Position numbers and translations under genes: made by a program. Under the pieces are notes generated by a model. The model saw nothing but the letters and a program-made list of their open reading frames with translations, did no database searches and was not told the origin of the DNA. This document shows, one piece after another, positions 1,968-14,712 of a stretch of DNA of 25,372 nt. The first letter of the stretch is position 1, and every line of letters begins with the position of its first letter. The stretch comes from a virus: IMG/VR virus record IMGVR_UViG_3300046804_003128, positions 1 to 25,372 of that record; one strand, 5' to 3'.

Positions 1968-2003
1968 TTACAAGCAGCTATATTTACTTTGGGATGCTTG
2001 TAA
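1968..2003 (-). terminator. Possible weak terminator hairpin at the end of folE
   Basis: A 9-bp inverted repeat (TTACAAGCA / TGCTTGTAA) with an 18-base loop covers the last codons and stop of folE. On the minus strand a TTTTTT run follows about ten bases later. The stem is short and AT-rich and the U-run is displaced, so termination is only possible. The position, at the end of the metabolic operon and just before the next promoter, is apt. Confidence 0.3.
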
Positions 2004-2729
2004 CTTCACATTCTGGAAGAATTCATTCTTAATTCCATCGATGTAGAACATGCCATGTAATACAGTTGTTTGTGTCAAGGATGATGATGCCATAATCCCA
2101 CGATTAGTACAACACCCATGTTCTGCTGCAACATGGACTGCAACATTTTCACTATTTGTAGCTTCCATAATAGCTTGTGCAATATCACCACAAAGTTCTT
2201 CTTGTAGTGTTCCACGACGAGCACAGTGTTGTGCAAGACGTACATATTTTGAAAGACCAATAACTTTTGTTGTTGGAATGATTCCAATATATGCAGTTCC
2301 TGATACTGGCTGATGATGATGTGAGCACATGGACTTAAGTTCTGCTCTCACAACTAACATTCCGTTGTAAGGATCTGTACCATGTGAACCATCATTAGGG
2401 AATGCAGTTACTTCTGGTGCTGGAAAATATCTACCAGACATAATCTCATTGACATACATCTTAGCAAGACGTCTAGCAGTTCCCTTAGAGTTTGGATCAT
2501 TATCTACGTCAATAAGTAATGAACGTAGTACACCATCAAACTTATCTGCTACCTCGTCAATGAGTAACCCACGATCATCATCGTCCATAAATTGGCTAAT
2601 GTTATCATTGGCAAAAAACCTAACATTGGCATCTTTTAACTTCTTTCTAATTTTCATTGAAACTGGCTGATAGCTTACAGATGTTTCAATTCTTGTTGGT
2701 TCAGTAATAATGTCTTTCACCTTACTCAT
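1968..2729 (-). CDS. folE: GTP cyclohydrolase I (FolE type)
   Basis: Converts GTP to 7,8-dihydroneopterin triphosphate, the entry step to both folate and 7-deazaguanine (preQ0) synthesis. The conserved core is clear: C135-S-H-H138, the motif VIGLSKYVRL at about 156-165, LQEELCGDIA, and H204-G-C206 before TNRG. Cys135, His138 and Cys206 match the three zinc ligands of E. coli FolE, and His137 and His204 match active-site histidines. Length (253 aa) is slightly above the usual 220. It overlaps queD by four bases (ATGA), so the two are coupled. With QueD and QueE in the same operon, the job is more likely preQ0 supply than folate. It is the last gene of the metabolic block. Confidence 0.93.
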   Translation of the reverse strand: MSKVKDIITEPTRIETSVSYQPVSMKIRKKLKDANVRFFANDNISQFMDDDDRGLLIDEVADKFDGVLRSLLIDVDNDPNSKGTARRLAKMYVNEIMSGRYFPAPEVTAFPNDGSHGTDPYNGMLVVRAELKSMCSHHHQPVSGTAYIGIIPTTKVIGLSKYVRLAQHCARRGTLQEELCGDIAQAIMEATNSENVAVHVAAEHGCCTNRGIMASSSLTQTTVLHGMFYIDGIKNEFFQNVKLQASQSKYSCL

Positions 2730-3247
2730 GCGAACAAATCCTCATTCCATTCTCTATGACCCTCACGATATGCCATATTGGCAATCGTTTCACGAACTTC
2801 TACCTTAAAGCACCAAAGGCGTTCAGCTTCACCAGGTCCCCACATATCAGGAATATACACACCATTAACATACTTATAAAGCATGTCAGAAAGACCTTCA
2901 CAACCAAGCTTTGGTAGAATAGTTAGTTTAGCTAAATTCTTTTTTTCTAGCAACTTAAAAGTTTCCATTTCTGGATCATCTTGAGCTACCAACAAAGTAT
3001 GGTCAAATTGATCTTCCAATACCTTCTTAAGTTCCTTGAGTCCACCATAATCAGCTACCCAGTTACGAATATCTAATGTATCGGAACCAAAATAAAATTT
3101 CATAGAGAAGGAATAACCATGAATAAGATTGCAATGGCTATCTGCTCTCCATTGCCTATAGGCACAAGGAAATGCATTATGATATTCTTTAGTACTTACA
3201 TATTTGTATGTTCTTGGTCTTGGCCCAAAGTTACTGTCCCACATCAT
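2726..3247 (-). CDS. queD: 6-carboxy-tetrahydropterin synthase-like protein (QueD/PTPS family)
   Basis: Expected to act on the FolE product to form 6-carboxy-5,6,7,8-tetrahydropterin for preQ0 synthesis. The family pattern is recognisable: ADSHCNLIHGYSFSMKF at about 35-51 (the C-x3-H-G segment with catalytic Cys39), FDHTLL (Asp82-His83 of the catalytic triad) and a late Glu in CEGLSDML. At 173 aa it is longer than E. coli QueD (about 120). Two of the usual three zinc His positions appear to be Tyr (PCAYRQ instead of AAHR, HGY instead of HGH), so the metal site may be altered. ATG 3247 or the adjacent ATG 3244 can serve, with AAGGA upstream. It overlaps the preceding 80-aa gene and folE. Confidence 0.85.
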   Translation of the reverse strand: MMWDSNFGPRPRTYKYVSTKEYHNAFPCAYRQWRADSHCNLIHGYSFSMKFYFGSDTLDIRNWVADYGGLKELKKVLEDQFDHTLLVAQDDPEMETFKLLEKKNLAKLTILPKLGCEGLSDMLYKYVNGVYIPDMWGPGEAERLWCFKVEVRETIANMAYREGHREWNEDLFA

Positions 3248-3473
3248 TATTATTATCCTTCTTAACTAGAAACGTTTCTATTCTACGGTCAATATATTCA
3301 TCTAGATGTTTTTTAAATTTTTCTTTCGTAGCAGGTAGAATTTTATTGCGAATATCATCAGCTTGTCGCCATCTACCTTCTTTATTAGCGTACCATTCAT
3401 CATCTAAAGAATCTATAAGCGACTCTAAAGATGTAATTACATCTTCAATAATTTCACTACTTCTTCTTGGCAT
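3231..3473 (-). CDS. Hypothetical protein, 80 aa, in the deazaguanine operon
   Basis: Not recognised. The start is ATG 3473, overlapping the queE stop as TAATG; the frame stays open further upstream, but that part lies wholly inside queE. The protein is short, soluble and strongly helical, with an acidic N-terminal helix (EIIEDVITSLESLIDSLDDEW) and a basic C-terminal part (ATKEKFKKHLDEYIDRRIE). Placement between queE and queD, with overlaps on both sides, suggests co-translation. It could assist the pathway or merely be a passenger. Confidence 0.75.
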   Translation of the reverse strand: MPRRSSEIIEDVITSLESLIDSLDDEWYANKEGRWRQADDIRNKILPATKEKFKKHLDEYIDRRIETFLVKKDNNNDVGQ

Positions 3474-4336
3474 TACGTACCCCAGGCGTTCTTCCACAAC
3501 TGCACTTGTAGACGTGGAGTGTAACGCCAACCGTGCTTCATAGCAAGATCTGCAACCCATTTCTCGTTAGTATCATATACCTTTGTAGTACCACCAGCAG
3601 GCATAAGATATATTGGAATGTGTTGCATTGCAGCACGAAGTGTCATCGAATAATCATCAATTGCTTTAATAACGTCTTGGTAGTCTTCTTCATTAGACAC
3701 TACCCACTTAAAGTATGTGAGACTGCCGTTATCATAATACTGTTTAATAATCTCAGGACGAATAGCTTCTTCCCACTTCTCACCAGATGATGGTAACTTA
3801 GAAGATACACTGAAAGTAATATTCAAATCTGGAAAGCAATCATTAGACTTAAACCAATCGATCAATTCTGGTTTTAGTTCTTGTGTACCATTTGTCTCAA
3901 ATGTTATATGAGTAAGGTTCATATCCTGTTTAAAGATTTCTTCAAACAAAGCAATATATGAACGTTGCCATCCAAGTAGTGGCTCACCACCTGTAAGAAT
4001 CAAATGCTTATCTGGTCCAAACTTTCCATCAGGTAGAAGTTCTTTCATCTTTGCTACAATAGCTTCTACAGTCATTAAAGGTGAAAGATGCTTGAACCTC
4101 ACATCCCACGATGCATAAGAATCACATCCTGTATGTACTAAAGGAAGATCTTCATAGTTTTCATATTGTTTAGGATCTATGGATAATCTTTCTTCTGATA
4201 ACTGTCCACGTGGCATACCAAATCCTGAACACATAAAGTTACAACCAAACGTGCGAAGAAATACTGAAGGTGTACCTAGATATTGTCCCTCACCTTGTAG
4301 TGAGTAAAATAATTCTGCAACTTTAATCTTAGACAT
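3473..4336 (-). CDS. queE: 7-carboxy-7-deazaguanine synthase-like radical SAM enzyme (QueE)
   Basis: Radical SAM enzyme that contracts the ring of carboxytetrahydropterin to 7-carboxy-7-deazaguanine. Evidence (numbered from ATG 4363): the family N-terminus VAELFYSLQGEGQYLGTPSVF, a cysteine cluster starting FGC41NFMC45, the SAM-binding ILTGGEPLL, and ETNGT. Unusually, the third cluster cysteine does not follow C45: the C-D-S/T-x3-W motif that normally holds it appears at C80-D-S-Y-A-S-W86, after a 34-residue insertion. The start ATG 4336 (287 aa) has AGGAGA well placed; the upstream ATG at 4363 would lie inside the previous gene. It overlaps the preceding gene by eight bases. Paired with folE and queD in one operon. 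Confidence 0.88.
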   Translation of the reverse strand: MSKIKVAELFYSLQGEGQYLGTPSVFLRTFGCNFMCSGFGMPRGQLSEERLSIDPKQYENYEDLPLVHTGCDSYASWDVRFKHLSPLMTVEAIVAKMKELLPDGKFGPDKHLILTGGEPLLGWQRSYIALFEEIFKQDMNLTHITFETNGTQELKPELIDWFKSNDCFPDLNITFSVSSKLPSSGEKWEEAIRPEIIKQYYDNGSLTYFKWVVSNEEDYQDVIKAIDDYSMTLRAAMQHIPIYLMPAGGTTKVYDTNEKWVADLAMKHGWRYTPRLQVQLWKNAWGT

Positions 4337-4598
4337 CTTTATCTTTCTCCTGATAGAGCTCAACTGCAGCTGATAGCATACGATTTAATTCAGCACTTAT
4401 TGCAATCTCTAGCTCTTCTGTTATTTGACCATTAACTTTATAAGCTCTGTCTTTATCTATTTTGTAAATGTCTACATCAATAGATAATTTACCATCTTTA
4501 TCTTCGTGAACAAAATCACCAGGAGGAAAGGTTACAAAATATTCTCCAACCCTAAATCCTTCTTTAAGTTGTTCTTTACTTATTCCATTTTCCATCAT
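4329..4598 (-). CDS. Hypothetical protein, 89 aa
   Basis: Not recognised. A small, acidic, soluble protein: an N-terminal segment with FRVGEYFVTFPPGDFVHEDKDG, likely beta, then a C-terminal helix (ITEELEIAISAELNRMLSAAVELYQEK). It overlaps the end of the deformylase gene by 23 bases and the start of queE by eight, so it is tightly packed into the operon. ATG 4598 or ATG 4595 can be used; AAGGG lies five or eight bases upstream, the latter being the better spacing. No motif links it to deazaguanine chemistry. Confidence 0.75.
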   Translation of the reverse strand: MMENGISKEQLKEGFRVGEYFVTFPPGDFVHEDKDGKLSIDVDIYKIDKDRAYKVNGQITEELEIAISAELNRMLSAAVELYQEKDKDV

Positions 4599-5076
4599 AG
4601 TAACCCTTCATAGCTTTATCTCTATGATACTTGTTTGCTCTATTAACAAATACAATACCATCTAAATGATCCATTTCATGTTGAAACACTCTTGCAGTAA
4701 GACCGTCAAATGTCATAGAAGTAGTTTCACCTGATGGTGTCTGAAATCTAACTCTGATATGCTTTGATCTCTTAACCTTAACATTTACACCTGGAAAAGA
4801 GAGACAACCCTCTTCGAGAGTTTCTGTTTCATCACCATAGTGTACAATTTTTGGATTGAAGCAAACAAAATTCTCAGGTGAGCTTCTCATAACAAATACA
4901 CGAAATGGAACGCCAACCTGATTGGCTGACAATCCTACACCCTTATAATCATTCATTATTTGAATTAATCCAACAGCTAATTCATTCGGATCACCAGGAG
5001 GATTTGCAAAGTCAAATAGATCACAAGGTGTTGATAGCATTGTATGAGGATATTTTAAAATTGTATCGTCACTCAT
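4576..5076 (-). CDS. def: Peptide deformylase
   Basis: Removes the formyl group from the N-terminal Met of new proteins. All three family motifs are present: motif 1 GVGLSANQVG at 46-55 (usually GxGxAAxQ; Ser replaces one Ala), motif 2 EGCLSFPG at about 89-96 with the metal-binding Cys91, and motif 3 QHEMDHLDG at 132-140 with metal ligands His133 and His137 and catalytic Glu134. At 166 aa it is close to bacterial enzymes and ends soon after motif 3. ATG 5076 is chosen because GAGG lies seven bases before it; ATG 5082 has almost no spacing. The start overlaps the stop of a 58-aa gene (ATGA). Deformylases are known accessory genes of marine phages. Confidence 0.93.
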   Translation of the reverse strand: MSDDTILKYPHTMLSTPCDLFDFANPPGDPNELAVGLIQIMNDYKGVGLSANQVGVPFRVFVMRSSPENFVCFNPKIVHYGDETETLEEGCLSFPGVNVKVKRSKHIRVRFQTPSGETTSMTFDGLTARVFQHEMDHLDGIVFVNRANKYHRDKAMKGYYDGKWNK

Positions 5077-5249
5077 ACCCATTCCTCAACAATACCAACG
5101 ATCTCAGCTGCTAGAAACCAGGCAGCAAGATATATTATATCATGCCCAAACCAAATAACAGAAGCACAACCAATTATACGTAAAAGACTTTTGACATATG
5201 ACCAATATCCATGCCATGATCTATAATTCTTTTCAAAATCATCACTCAT
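5073..5249 (-). CDS. Small membrane protein, 58 aa
   Basis: A short gene with AGGAG before ATG 5249 and a stop overlapping the deformylase start (ATGA). The product begins MSDDFEKNYRSWHGYWSYVK and continues with a hydrophobic, aromatic stretch (LLRIIGCASVIWFGHD, then IIYLAAWFLAAEIVGIV) that looks like one or two membrane segments, ending EEWV. A Trp/Tyr-rich N-terminus followed by a hydrophobic C-terminal half is common in tiny phage inner-membrane proteins. Function unknown. The spacing of two bases to the upstream gene and the coupled start downstream support it as a real gene. Confidence 0.7.
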   Translation of the reverse strand: MSDDFEKNYRSWHGYWSYVKSLLRIIGCASVIWFGHDIIYLAAWFLAAEIVGIVEEWV

Positions 5250-8916: not shown

Positions 8917-9131
8917 TTAGTAGCCTCTACATTTCTGCTACCACGTCCACGTTTATATATGTTAGTATTAGCTTCCATATTATGCTTACGTATAGCTTGA
9001 TCACAAAAGTCACGAATAGCTTCTAGTCTAATAATGTAATTAAGACGTAGATTGTCTTGTTTAGTTACAGACAAACCTTGTGCGCAATCAATAACAACTT
9101 GTGGTATGAGATGTAATTTTTCATTCTTCAT
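8913..9131 (-). CDS. Hypothetical protein, 72 aa, between gp55 and gp47
   Basis: Not recognised. A small helical protein with a basic C-terminus (NIYKRGRGSRNVEATK). ATG 9131 has GGAG seven bases upstream, inside the end of the gp55 gene. Its stop overlaps the GTG start of gp47. The Cys and Gln content is low and no metal or nucleotide motif is seen. Tight overlaps on both sides indicate that it belongs to the replication-recombination operon and may help set the expression of gp47 through translational coupling. Confidence 0.7.
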   Translation of the reverse strand: MKNEKLHLIPQVVIDCAQGLSVTKQDNLRLNYIIRLEAIRDFCDQAIRKHNMEANTNIYKRGRGSRNVEATK

Positions 9132-9675
9132 AGAACTTCTCCACTCCTTGGCGTCTCGACTTACTCTTCTTTTGTTTTTCTAGTTGTTTTTTATCGTAAG
9201 ACTCTACAAGCCCCTTCATATACTCATTGTCAAGATTAACTGTCACAGACTTGTCTTCATCAAATGCTTGTTCTGCTAACATACCCTCAAAGTAAAAATT
9301 TTCCAACGTTTTTTGTTTAATGTACAAATGTTTTTTCTCTTTATCAATTCGTCTAATAAAAGCAAACCAAATAATTTGTGTAAAGTAAGCAAATGGATTG
9401 TCGGACTTTTCTGGATCAAAATTGTTTAAATAATTAATACAATTTTCCAACCCATCAGATATCATTTCATCTCTGTATGTGTAACTAATAAAGTTTGGCT
9501 TTAGTGACAAACGTGTGGCAATCTTATAAAGACATTCACCTATGTAGGAAGGTATTCGAGGATCTTCCTTTCCTTCAGCTCGTGCTGCAGTGACAGCCTG
9601 CTTGTGATGTAAAAGTGCTGTATAGAATTTTTTGTTGTCGATGTAATGCTTACTGTTTTTTGCTGCAGCTGCCAT
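9121..9675 (-). CDS. 55: Late-transcription sigma factor gp55
   Basis: Directs host RNA polymerase to late promoters (TATAAATA) together with the sliding clamp. Length 184 aa (T4 gp55 is 185). The central part aligns well with T4 gp55: YTYRDEMISDGLENCINYLNNFDPEK, then NPFAYFTQIIWFAFIRRIDKEKK, corresponding to the conserved sigma region 2-type helices that bind polymerase and melt the promoter. The C-terminal part (about 130-184) is charged and ends GVEKFYEE; a clamp-binding hydrophobic-acidic tail like that of T4 (SLDFLYE) is only faintly present. The TATAAATA boxes before the head genes in this window are consistent targets. Confidence 0.93.
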   Translation of the reverse strand: MAAAAKNSKHYIDNKKFYTALLHHKQAVTAARAEGKEDPRIPSYIGECLYKIATRLSLKPNFISYTYRDEMISDGLENCINYLNNFDPEKSDNPFAYFTQIIWFAFIRRIDKEKKHLYIKQKTLENFYFEGMLAEQAFDEDKSVTVNLDNEYMKGLVESYDKKQLEKQKKSKSRRQGVEKFYEE

Positions 9676-11946: not shown

Positions 11947-12468
11947 TTAGACTTTCTTCACATGGAATATTTTATATTTAAATGATACGGAAGCTGAAAT
12001 ATAATTAACATCAGTGTCTGATGTAGTAAAGTTAATTTGATCAATAGAGGTAGGAAACAAATCTTCAAACGTAACTTCAATGTTAGGAACCATATCACTA
12101 GTCATTATAGTTAATGTTGCATCAGATACTAATTGATTAGGCGTGCCCTTCTGAGCAGCCTTGAGGCCTTTATATTGATTGAAATTTTCAGGAAATCCAA
12201 TTGCAATTAACCAATTGTATATTTCAAAATATGTTGACATATCTTCGTCCATCTTGAACGTAAGATTGAAATCACCATAGTCTAACTTACTTCCAGGCAA
12301 GCTAACTACTTTAAATGGTGTTGGTAGTTCAACAGTATTTAACGATATCTGAGGTAGATTTACATCAGTTACAAAAAAGTTAAGGTTAGGTGCACGCTTA
12401 AGCTTGAACCTAAACCCTAACGGTGATAAGAAATTGATGTTTGCAGGTTGTTCGTTTATTTGAGCCAT
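11947..12468 (-). CDS. Tail-tube-fold protein (gp19-like; possibly the gp3-position protein)
   Basis: A structural tail protein of 173 aa. The pattern is that of the contractile-tail tube family: a beta-rich body with NINFLSPLGFRFKLKRAPNLNFFVTDVNLP at the N-terminus, GDFNLTFKMDEDMSTYFEIYNWLIAIGFP in the middle, and a late VNYISASVSFKYKIFHV strand. In marine T4-like phages the gene just before uvsY is usually called gp3 (tail completion/terminator), so this may be a tube terminator rather than the main tube subunit gp19. ATG 12468 has AAGGAGT. The late promoter CATAAATA (12494-12487) and a hairpin over the ribosome site lie immediately upstream (see findings). Confidence 0.8.
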   Translation of the reverse strand: MAQINEQPANINFLSPLGFRFKLKRAPNLNFFVTDVNLPQISLNTVELPTPFKVVSLPGSKLDYGDFNLTFKMDEDMSTYFEIYNWLIAIGFPENFNQYKGLKAAQKGTPNQLVSDATLTIMTSDMVPNIEVTFEDLFPTSIDQINFTTSDTDVNYISASVSFKYKIFHVKKV

Positions 12469-12470
12469 CT

Positions 12471-12490
12471 AATACTCCTTATTGAGTATT
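12471..12490 (-). promoter_or_regulatory. Hairpin covering the ribosome binding site of the tail-tube-like gene
   Basis: On the minus strand AATACTC, loop AATAAG, GAGTATT: a perfect 7-bp stem. The Shine-Dalgarno AAGGAG (12479-12474) is half in the loop and half in the 3' arm, so a transcript containing the whole stem would hide it. A transcript starting at the late promoter just upstream would lack the 5' arm. Confidence 0.6.
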
Positions 12491-12494
12491 TATG
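12487..12494 (-). promoter_or_regulatory. T4-type late promoter CATAAATA (7/8)
   Basis: CATAAATA on the minus strand differs from TATAAATA at the first base. It overlaps the stop codon of the preceding small gene and ends 18 bases before the start of the tail-tube-like gene. Starting about six bases on, the mRNA would have a leader of about 12-14 bases containing AAGGAG. Confidence 0.55.
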
Positions 12495-12663
12495 ACTCTT
12501 GATTTCGACGGTCCTTAATATCCCTAACTTCTCCGATAGCACCACGAATAGCATGAGACATTAGAACTACAAATGCAGCTATAGAGATCATCGTCATGAT
12601 GAATAATGAAACAATGAAGATTAAATCCTGGGGTGAGTAGCAAGCCTTGAGATCAGTAAGCAT
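12490..12663 (-). CDS. Small single-span membrane protein, 57 aa
   Basis: Starts at ATG 12663 with AGGA upstream; an in-frame TTG further up lies inside the preceding gene and is not needed. The product has a short polar N-terminus (MLTDLKACYSPQD), one long hydrophobic segment (LIFIVSLFIMTMISIAAFVVL) and a charged C-terminus (RDIKDRRNQES), consistent with a single-span inner-membrane protein, probably with its charged tail in the cytoplasm. Its stop codon lies within the late promoter of the next gene. Function unknown; small membrane proteins in early phage regions often act on superinfection or host membrane processes, but nothing here proves it. Confidence 0.75.
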   Translation of the reverse strand: MLTDLKACYSPQDLIFIVSLFIMTMISIAAFVVLMSHAIRGAIGEVRDIKDRRNQES

Positions 12664-12664
12664 A

Positions 12665-12856
12665 TTAGTCTTTCCTATTTTTAATTTGTGTAAGGCTACC
12701 AAAAAGAATAATGGAAGCGATCCATGTATAGAAGTTAAATGGAATGTTCAATACTGGAAACAAAGTGTTCAAAGCCCAGATGTTTAGAAAACCAGCAATT
12801 GCTAATAGCAAAACTATAAACAAAATGCCAGCAATTAGTTTTAGAAAGTCTTCCAT
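12665..12856 (-). CDS. Small two-span membrane protein, 63 aa
   Basis: ATG 12856 has GAGG six bases upstream; frame extension further up lies in the previous gene. Two hydrophobic segments are evident: LKLIAGILFIVLLLAIAGFL, then a short turn with NIWALNTLFPVLNIPFNFYTW, and WIASIILFGSL, ending in a basic tail KNRKD. The NTLFP...IPF...W pattern between spans recurs in tiny membrane proteins of many phages, as far as I remember; the function is not known. It sits between two other small genes with gaps of one base, in the early-type cluster. Confidence 0.75.
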   Translation of the reverse strand: MEDFLKLIAGILFIVLLLAIAGFLNIWALNTLFPVLNIPFNFYTWIASIILFGSLTQIKNRKD

Positions 12857-12857
12857 A

Positions 12858-13070
12858 TTAAACCTCTGATATAAGATACACTTCTTTATTGTTGTGCAAA
12901 AATACACCAACAACTTGATTGTCTACCATTAATACTTTTTGATCAACACCCATTTGCATCTTGATTGTTTTATTTTCTACTTCAAACATACCACGCTTAC
13001 AAACTAAAGTCTTGCCAACAAGATTAAAATCTGTGTAGTTGTTTTCGTTAAGTGGTAGCAGTACCTTCAT
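12858..13070 (-). CDS. Hypothetical protein, 70 aa
   Basis: Not recognised. A small beta-rich protein (MKVLLPLNENNYTDFNLVGKTLVCKRG, later VDNQVVGVFLHNNKEVYLISEV). The start at ATG 13070 overlaps the stop of the DUF1281-like gene (ATGA), with AGGAAAG upstream. Alternating hydrophobic residues suggest a small beta-barrel or SH3-like fold. No ligand or catalytic residues can be named. Confidence 0.7.
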   Translation of the reverse strand: MKVLLPLNENNYTDFNLVGKTLVCKRGMFEVENKTIKMQMGVDQKVLMVDNQVVGVFLHNNKEVYLISEV

Positions 13071-13618
13071 TTGCTTTCCTGTTCTTCCCAATCCTTAAAC
13101 TCCAACCAACCTTCATAATGGCTTTCAAGAAGTTGTAAAATGTCTTCATCTTCAAATGAGTCTCTCCAATTTTCATCTTCAAAATCTGGAAAATCGTAGT
13201 ATGTGTCACCATACTCAGAAACATACTTACCTACAAACGAACCACCTTCCTCGTCGTATACAACTTCGAGATCAAAACCCATTTGTGTTAATTTGTCGTA
13301 TGCTTCGATAGGAGGACTCCAAGCTGTAAGAAAGCTACCTTTAACTACATTGCCTTCTTCAAATGCAGAACTGGCAGAAATGTCCCACTTAGTGCCCCAG
13401 TTACTAACACGCCAGCTATACCAATTGTCGTGACCATACTTTTCAATTAAGGTAACATCACTATCACGATAAGGAGATGTTGTAGTGTCATTAAGCACTT
13501 CAGGCATAGGAATAAATGTCTGAAAAAGATTACAATCATTTACTGCTTGAGTAAACTTCTTTAACATCTCAGGATCTTGATGAGATACAGTAAAATTATT
13601 AGTACACCAATTAGGCAC
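13067..13618 (-). CDS. API92/DUF1281-like ferredoxin-fold protein, 183 aa
   Basis: The N-terminus MPNWCTNNFTV is the hallmark of the phage and plasmid API92/YubB-like (DUF1281) family, and the WGTKWDISASS motif at about 74-84 and the aromatic AWSPPIEAYDKL that follows are also typical. The fold is ferredoxin-like; no activity is established that I know of. At 183 aa it is in the usual range and intact. The C-terminus is very acidic (FEDENWRDSFEDEDILQLLES). ATG 13618 follows the previous gene at once and the stop overlaps the next start, so it is part of the small-gene operon behind the promoters at 14442 and 14712. Confidence 0.85.
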   Translation of the reverse strand: MPNWCTNNFTVSHQDPEMLKKFTQAVNDCNLFQTFIPMPEVLNDTTTSPYRDSDVTLIEKYGHDNWYSWRVSNWGTKWDISASSAFEEGNVVKGSFLTAWSPPIEAYDKLTQMGFDLEVVYDEEGGSFVGKYVSEYGDTYYDFPDFEDENWRDSFEDEDILQLLESHYEGWLEFKDWEEQESK

Positions 13619-13620
13619 GA

Positions 13621-13947
13621 TTAGCTCCCAACACCAACATAGATCTTACCCTTTTCTTTGGTAAACATCTCTACATAAACACCCCAGTAGCCAGTCTGCT
13701 TGATGAGATCTAACATATCTTGTTCAATGGTATCTCTATCAAACATACCGTTTTTAACTTCAACGACTTTCGAAAACTCACGACCAGACCATTTATAGAA
13801 GATCTCTACAGGACCATCGTGAAGAAACTTAATACGGTTAGGAGCGAAGTTGGTATCGACATCATAATCATAATACCATGCTGCATAGTTAGGCAACCAT
13901 TCATCAGCATTGCTAGATGAAGAATCCTTAAAGATTGACCAAGCCAT
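13621..13947 (-). CDS. Hypothetical protein, 108 aa
   Basis: Not recognised. A soluble, aromatic-rich protein: DEWLPNYAAWYYDYDVDTNF near the N-terminus, FYKWSGREFSKVVEV in the middle, and TGYWGVYVEMFTKEKGKIYVGVGS at the C-terminus. Strand-rich, with many Tyr and Trp residues. The start overlaps the stop of the previous gene as TAATG, with GGGAAA upstream. It belongs to the early-type small-gene cluster. The high Trp/Tyr content is similar to that of its DUF1281-like neighbour, but there is no clear sequence relation. Confidence 0.7.
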   Translation of the reverse strand: MAWSIFKDSSSSNADEWLPNYAAWYYDYDVDTNFAPNRIKFLHDGPVEIFYKWSGREFSKVVEVKNGMFDRDTIEQDMLDLIKQTGYWGVYVEMFTKEKGKIYVGVGS

Positions 13948-14180
13948 TATACAGTTTCCCTTTTCATGTCTTCCATAATTTCCAAAGCCTGAATATCAAA
14001 ATCCCTTGCTAACGATATGATATGTTCAGACACATCTCGATTGAAGCATACTGATTTGAAAGCATCACTCATCTGTTCTGCAATCTCATCAACCAAATAT
14101 TCATTAAACGAACAATGCTTGAATGCATGATGTGCTTCAGGAGTCAATTTAAGATTGATTGTAATAGGAACATTAACCAT
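13947..14180 (-). CDS. Hypothetical protein, 77 aa
   Basis: Not recognised. It begins MVNVPITINLKLTPEAHHAF, a beta strand then helix arrangement that resembles small ribbon-helix-helix or antitoxin-like N-termini, followed by two acidic helices (VDEIAEQMSDAFKSV and FDIQALEIMEDM). A DNA-binding or protein-binding role is conceivable but unsupported. The start overlaps the end of the preceding gene by eight bases; GGTGG lies upstream. Its stop codon overlaps the next start as TAATG. Confidence 0.65.
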   Translation of the reverse strand: MVNVPITINLKLTPEAHHAFKHCSFNEYLVDEIAEQMSDAFKSVCFNRDVSEHIISLARDFDIQALEIMEDMKRETV

Positions 14181-14388
14181 TTGCTACCACCATTGCATCA
14201 TCATGTTGTTCGTATGCTTGTGCAAGCTGATTATAATAACCATCCATCTCTTGAACATCGTATTCAAGATTATCTGCAAGCATTTGTAATTCAGAAACGT
14301 AATCTTCTGCCTTAAAATTTAAGACTTGACCCATTGTTATAATCCGATTAATGTGATCTACAATTTCCATAATATCATTGACGTGCAT
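14173..14388 (-). CDS. Hypothetical helical protein, 71 aa
   Basis: Not recognised. Mostly helical and acidic (VNDIMEIVDHINRIITMGQV, then EDYVSELQMLADNLEYDVQEM), possibly a short coiled coil or helical hairpin. ATG 14388 is chosen since GGAG lies six bases before it; ATG 14400 has no ribosome site and would itself supply that GGAG. The gene lies right behind the promoter at 14414-14442 and overlaps the next gene by eight bases. Confidence 0.7.
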   Translation of the reverse strand: MHVNDIMEIVDHINRIITMGQVLNFKAEDYVSELQMLADNLEYDVQEMDGYYNQLAQAYEQHDDAMVVANG

Positions 14389-14413
14389 TTGTATCTCCAT
14401 TGCTCATATTATA

Positions 14414-14442
14414 ATAATAGCAGATTGCCAAAATAATGTCAA
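14414..14442 (-). promoter_or_regulatory. Sigma70-type promoter for the 14388-12490 cluster
   Basis: TTGACA (14442-14437), 17 bases, TATTAT (14419-14414) on the minus strand. The -35 box contains the TGA stop codon of the preceding gene, so the promoter is embedded at the gene junction. Confidence 0.75.
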
Positions 14443-14654
14443 CCAATTTTTTTGACGTCAATCAGTACATCAATTCCTTTGGCAAGCATGTCAAAACGAA
14501 GATCTTGTAATTTATTAGGATCTGTAACATATTTCTCAATTAATCCAACGATAAACGATTCCATATAACCAATCGCATAATCCTTGTTTTTCTTGGTCAA
14601 AGCCGAGACCATTTTCCCAACAATTTCAGAGGTTTCCATACGTGTATTGCTCAT
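14439..14654 (-). CDS. Hypothetical helical protein, 71 aa
   Basis: Not recognised. Predominantly helical: METSEIVGKMVSALTKKNKD, then YMESFIVGLIEKYVTD and LRFDMLAKGIDVLIDVKK. It is the first gene on the minus side of the divergent promoter region, with ATG 14654 preceded by AGGA at a spacing of seven. Its stop codon forms part of the next promoter's -35 box. Being first in the early unit, it would be expressed very soon after infection if the promoter is used by unmodified host polymerase. Confidence 0.75.
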   Translation of the reverse strand: MSNTRMETSEIVGKMVSALTKKNKDYAIGYMESFIVGLIEKYVTDPNKLQDLRFDMLAKGIDVLIDVKKIG

Positions 14655-14683: not shown

Positions 14684-14712
14684 AATATACGGTTTTTTTA
14701 AAATAATGTCAA
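14684..14712 (-). promoter_or_regulatory. Sigma70-type promoter, minus side of the divergent pair
   Basis: TTGACA (14712-14707), 17 bases, TATATT (14689-14684), followed by AATAA as in the promoter at 1921-1949. It drives the gene at 14654. Confidence 0.8.

Follow-up and report, generated by a model that had tools for sequence, protein, structure and literature searches.

A hairpin with an embedded late promoter, predicted to lock translation of a gp3-like tail gene in an uncultivated T4-like virus

Described T4 systems and the locus in the window

T4 genes e, soc, 49, I-TevI, I-TevII, I-TevIII and segB are among the known or implicated cases of translation locked by a hairpin (PMC3014915, PMC2988022). 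The lock of gene e has been shown by experiment. On its long mRNA, the Shine-Dalgarno (SD) sequence and AUG of e lie in a stem whose 5' arm comes from the late promoter region; the late mRNA lacks this arm, the gene stands behind early-transcribed genes, and lysozyme made from long e mRNA is about 100-fold down (PMC3014915). The split ribosome-binding sites of T4 genes 25 and 38 also have an RNA stem at a late gene start, but PMC3014915 places it between SD and AUG, where it raises translation. No report of a lock of the e kind on gene 3 was found in the open-access literature searched.

The DNA analysed here (the window) was a full IMG/VR record of 25,372 bases from a T4-like bacterial virus known only from metagenomes; the phage records searched contained no isolate of its clade. 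The gene order on the minus strand was a portal-like fragment, gp21/gp22/gp23, a block of small genes, a gp3-like gene, uvsY, uvsW, gp55, gp47 and gp46. The names gp20, gp21, gp22, uvsW, gp46 and gp47 were assigned from sequence only, as were those of GTP cyclohydrolase I-, QueD-, QueE- and peptide deformylase-like proteins at 1968-5082 (minus strand), a set suggesting deazaguanine modification. The features of the locus, with the late sigma factor gene, were as follows.

14684..14712, minus strand: sigma-70-like early promoter TTGACA-17-TATATT, 11/12 (promoter scan)
14414..14442, minus strand: second sigma-70-like early promoter TTGACA-17-TATTAT, 11/12 (promoter scan)
12490..14654, minus strand: cluster of small early-type genes, co-directional and reading into the locked gene (sequence)
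12490..12663, minus strand: upstream ORF of 57 aa, membrane-like, MLTDLKACYSPQDL..., with homologues in L003-L006 and L024-L026
12492..12498, minus strand: 5' side of the outer stem, GAGTCAT (fold; partly kept in relatives)
12487..12494, minus strand: T4-type late promoter CATAAATA (sequence)
12484..12490, minus strand: 5' arm of the inner stem, AATACTC, entirely upstream of the predicted late +1 (sequence and fold)
12478..12483, minus strand: loop AATAAG, containing the 5' half of the SD (sequence and fold)
12475..12480, minus strand: Shine-Dalgarno AAGGAG (sequence)
12471..12477, minus strand: 3' arm of the inner stem, GAGTATT, containing the 3' half of the SD (sequence and fold)
12468-12466, minus strand: start codon ATG (sequence)
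12462..12468, minus strand: 3' side of the outer stem, ATGGCTC, start codon included (fold)
11947..12468, minus strand: gp3-like tail-tube terminator/tail completion protein, 173 aa (profile match)
9121-9675, minus strand: gp55-like late sigma factor (phrog_234, E 1.4e-58)

The perfect 7-bp stem AATACTC-AATAAG-GAGTATT over AAGGAG, on which the original prediction was built, was read directly from the minus strand at 12490-12471, exactly as claimed. The late promoter at 12494-12487 was likewise confirmed to overlap the 5' arm. In T4 the late box spans -13 to -6 (PMC2988020), so that with C12494 at -13 in T4 numbering the 5' end of the late mRNA would fall near 12481, in the loop; the late mRNA would thus lack the entire 5' arm (12490-12484) and have a leader of about 13 nt. 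Folding extended the structure beyond the earlier description, with an outer stem predicted to pair the AUG.

This arrangement resembled T4 e in the placement of SD and AUG in the stem, of the late promoter region as the 5' arm and of the gene behind early-type genes, and its start-region score, defined below, was 10.7 compared with 12.2 kcal/mol for e. The e gene, however, is a lysis gene with 37 nt between the end of its upstream gene and its AUG, whereas the upstream stop here lies inside the promoter; the window lock is a computed prediction. The layout was near-identical to that of segB (leader CATAAATActcttagaaataggagatatttATG) and I-TevI, which are mobile-element genes, while the gene here is a structural tail gene. 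T4 soc and gene 49 (scores 6.0 and 10.6 kcal/mol) are also late genes behind early or middle genes, with the lock here on a different gene. Unlike the stems of genes 25 and 38, the stem in the window contains both SD and AUG.

Folding energies, upstream transcription and identity of the gene

The start-region score was the cost of opening the AUG and the 12 nt before it, long mRNA minus late mRNA. For the window gene, the computed cost was 14.3 kcal/mol on the long mRNA and 3.6 kcal/mol on the late mRNA, and the difference of 10.7 kcal/mol was reached by 2 of 3000 random leaders in which promoter, SD and AUG were held constant. Opening of the SD alone was computed at 9.1 and 1.9 kcal/mol, respectively; an SD-only score failed on stem types 3 and 4 described below, whose loop holds the SD and whose stem holds the AUG, and the SD-to-AUG score was therefore adopted. 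The 101-nt context folded at -21.7 kcal/mol (z -2.8) and was equalled by 1 of 200 shuffles. By computed folding, SD and AUG are thus paired on transcripts starting upstream, as in a T4-type hairpin that sequesters the ribosome-binding site. A function of the hairpin as a terminator was rejected, as there is no following U-run and the terminator scan did not call it.

Both early promoters from which read-through had been proposed, at 14712 and 14442, were present, and the tail gene was found directly behind the early cluster in the same direction, as had been stated. The window held five 11/12 early-promoter sites against 1.25 expected, and similar early-type promoters were seen upstream of the cluster in L004, L007, L011, L024 and L025. 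No intrinsic terminator was called on the minus strand from 14712 to 12494, where there was one weak candidate only; at the sequence level the gene therefore stands behind co-directional early-type genes and promoters with no called terminator between. As a separate observation, the element TTGACATT...TATATT/TATTAT recurred in the window at 14712, 14442 and 1949 (minus strand) and is likely the early promoter consensus of the group.

One part of the original prediction was revised. The gene had been called tail-tube-like, and PHROG 45 does label it 'tail tube', but its profile matched the solved gp3 tube terminator 9mkb (E 3.8e-12), with gp54 second (0.0015), and its cyanophage homologues carry the annotation gp3 or tail completion. 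An identity as the gp19 tail tube was rejected, since the relative G001 has a separate gp19-like ORF between gp18 and gp20 and its homologue of the window gene sits away from that interval. On profile and gene order, the gene is identified as gp3, the tail-tube terminator.

The preferred reading, held at a probability of about 80%, is that translation of gp3 would be locked, with a late bypass built into the lock, as for T4 e, soc, 49 and I-TevI. Early transcripts from 14712/14442 would read through the small-gene cluster into gp3. On this long mRNA the inner 7-bp stem is computed to mask the SD and the outer stem the AUG, which would give poor loading of 30S subunits. With gp55-type late transcription, RNA polymerase would start near 12481, and the short late mRNA, having no 5' arm, would leave the SD free. 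As an interpretation, the original prediction is supported: the layout of the elements, the computed energy difference, conservation in relatives and the T4 control all agree with it. Read in this way, the locus would add a tail-assembly gene of uncultivated T4-like viruses to the few genes, in coliphages and their relatives, for which this textbook but seldom described form of T4 regulation is on record.

Conservation among gp3 relatives and alternative explanations

Relatives of gp3 were gathered by protein and not by hairpin, and a leader was counted as locked when the long-minus-late difference was at least 2.5 kcal/mol. Conservation of the stem in relatives, whose failure had been named in advance as refuting, was found: 17 of 18 distinct gp3 leaders (59-100% identity) were locked. 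The mean difference was 7.8 kcal/mol over all 18 clade leaders vs 1.7 kcal/mol over 62 distant gp3 leaders (p 5e-8, uncorrected for shared ancestry); the 18 leaders share ancestry and do not represent 18 independent events. Four stem sequences occupied the same place in the clade leaders.

Type 1: AATACTC/GAGTATT, the commonest, includes the window
Type 2: ATACTCCTG/CAGGAGTAT, longer, in L011
Type 3: ATAGCATATAA/TTATATGCTAT, in L030 and L128
Type 4: ATAGGATAAA/TTTATTCTAT, in L131-L134

L011 and L030 were each equalled by 0 of 2000 random leaders. The type 4 leaders were individually weak (42 and 111 of 2000 random leaders equalled them), and the type 1 relative L024 was also weaker, L024 and type 4 together ranging from 39 to 111 of 2000. 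When 5' and 3' halves were swapped, types 3 and 4 were distinct from the rest, while types 1 and 2 cross-paired. Within the type 1 alignment, inner-stem covariation consisted of one C-G to U-A change and six G-U cells and did not exceed shuffled controls, since the 5' arm is constrained by the promoter. The comparative evidence is that the predicted lock was retained while its sequence turned over.

Locked members of the clade had small early-type genes directly upstream and co-directional, while most distant relatives had gp23 directly upstream of gp3, and there an intrinsic terminator usually preceded the late promoter. The sole unlocked clade member, L135, carried a terminator (GGGGGTCATTGTGACCCCC plus a T-rich run) immediately before TATAAATA. 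Lock and lack of insulation were associated (17 and 16 against 9 and 38; Fisher p 0.003, uncorrected for ancestry), and 16 insulated leaders nonetheless passed the 2.5 kcal/mol cut-off. By these leader sequences, the predicted lock occupies the place of the terminator or late upstream gene found at other gp3 genes. It was probably needed once early genes came to precede gp3, and the contrast between lock and terminator suggests that locks originate where early genes come to stand in front of a late gene. Among the distant leaders, L034, L066 and L074 had palindromes at TCTAAATA promoters (in L034, AAATACTT...AAGTATTT) despite an upstream terminator; these are not explained by the read-through idea.

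The strongest competitor, though an unlikely one, was translational coupling, in which the hairpin bars free 30S loading, and ribosomes finishing the small membrane-protein ORF unfold the 5' arm and pass on to gp3. Production of gp3 would then follow that of the upstream ORF on the long mRNA and be independent of it on the late mRNA. The upstream stop codon (TAA, 12492-12490) falls within the late promoter and 5' arm at -24 to -22, and its position is similar in most relatives; the corresponding reading frame of L024-L026 extends across the 5' arm to a stop codon in the loop, near -10. A ribosome terminating at the upstream stop would sit on the 5' arm and might leave the SD accessible. With the stop inside the promoter, terminating ribosomes may open the stem and leak early translation, and the early state of gp3, proposed as silent, may be leaky or coupled. 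However, the upstream ORF ends farther off in L011 (-61) and in L128 and L030 (-38), and there the lock was kept and was longer; the strong locks of L011 and L128 with distant stops argue that coupling is not the selected feature. In T4, too, the genes before e, soc and 49 end close by, 37, 32 and 41 nt from the AUG, though farther from it than the window stop, and long e mRNA still yields about 100-fold less lysozyme (PMC3014915).

It is much less probable that the complementarity is a by-product without function, arising because CTC often follows a late promoter and the SD is GGAG. ATAAATACTC...GGAG was indeed common before late genes in viral contigs, a scrambled control pattern gave 94 stretches against at least 120 for the perfect stem, and column covariation stayed within shuffles. 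The other exact TATAAATA boxes before window genes were, however, followed by ATTTATA, ATTTATA and AATTAAG and not by CTC, stem types 3 and 4 have no CTC/GAG pairing, and permutation of 3' halves among late leaders lowered the mean pairing in 300 of 300 shuffles; the rarity of the window score among random leaders (2 of 3000) also speaks against chance. Least probable of all was a DNA or RNA-processing signal, with the palindrome as a repressor operator (for example of a homing endonuclease) or as a nuclease site, cut within GGAG in the manner of RegB. I-TevI binds an operator over its own late promoter (PMC2988022), and the annotation of T4 RegB describes cleavage at GGAG in a subset of T4 mRNAs. 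Against this, G-U pairs in L001, L003, L005 and L006 break the DNA palindrome and keep the RNA stem, and stem sequence and register vary by type while complementarity stays.

T4 control and candidate cases beyond gp3

The T4 control covered those genes of a chosen list that have a late box no more than 60 nt from their start. The same score placed the known locked T4 genes at the top, in agreement with the proposal that the logic is that of e, soc and 49: I-TevI scored 14.8, I-TevII 13.0, e 12.2 (both late promoters), 49 10.6, segB 9.7, gene 4 7.3, soc 6.0 and inh 5.5 kcal/mol. Genes 18, 20 and 22 were near 0-3 and most other late genes below 4 kcal/mol. The window gp3 (10.7) would rank beside gene 49. 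T4 gene 3 and I-TevIII had no score entry; for gene 3 the scan over 60 nt showed no late box. The score recovered known T4 cases and is applicable to any T4-like genome. T4 gene 4 (NC_000866, 77337; L474) scored as locked, between segB and soc. Neither gene 4 nor inh is named as locked in the passages of PMC3014915 and PMC2988022 consulted, and their scores may be false positives or unreported cases.

When 58 late-promoter genes of the window and of five related contigs (G001, G002 and G011-G013) were scored, the top consisted of two GIY-YIG homing endonucleases and gp3, while gp18, gp20, gp22 and gp23 were near zero; three other genes (L106:1493, L458:1288 and L458:17431) lay between 5.7 and 7.5. 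The two locked endonuclease genes (L464:5916 and L459:18535, contig G011) had strong late-promoter hairpins over the ribosome-binding site; in T4, homing endonucleases of this class are known to be controlled in this way.

The scan for the exact stem pattern behind the count of at least 120 stretches was also followed to its contexts, and 75 of 80 fetched stretches preceded an ORF. Most of the 94 stretches of the scrambled control stood before genes as well, and the pattern count was set aside as weak proof of a widespread device. On balance, we lean slightly towards locks of this kind being general in uncultivated T4-like viruses, repeatedly re-made and interchangeable with terminators where a late gene follows early genes, with gp3 and a 55-residue family as two of many.

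This 55-residue orphan family (MAKIVEDVVVIKFSKIVKD..., L378-L457, for example L381 and L421) showed a late-promoter hairpin upstream of the match start. It is unrelated to gp3, had no PHROG or phage-record match, and in most loci read stood behind one ORF and a gene for a ClpA-like ATPase, a name likewise taken from the sequence. When the family was re-fetched by protein, 43 of 44 promoter-bearing leaders were locked.
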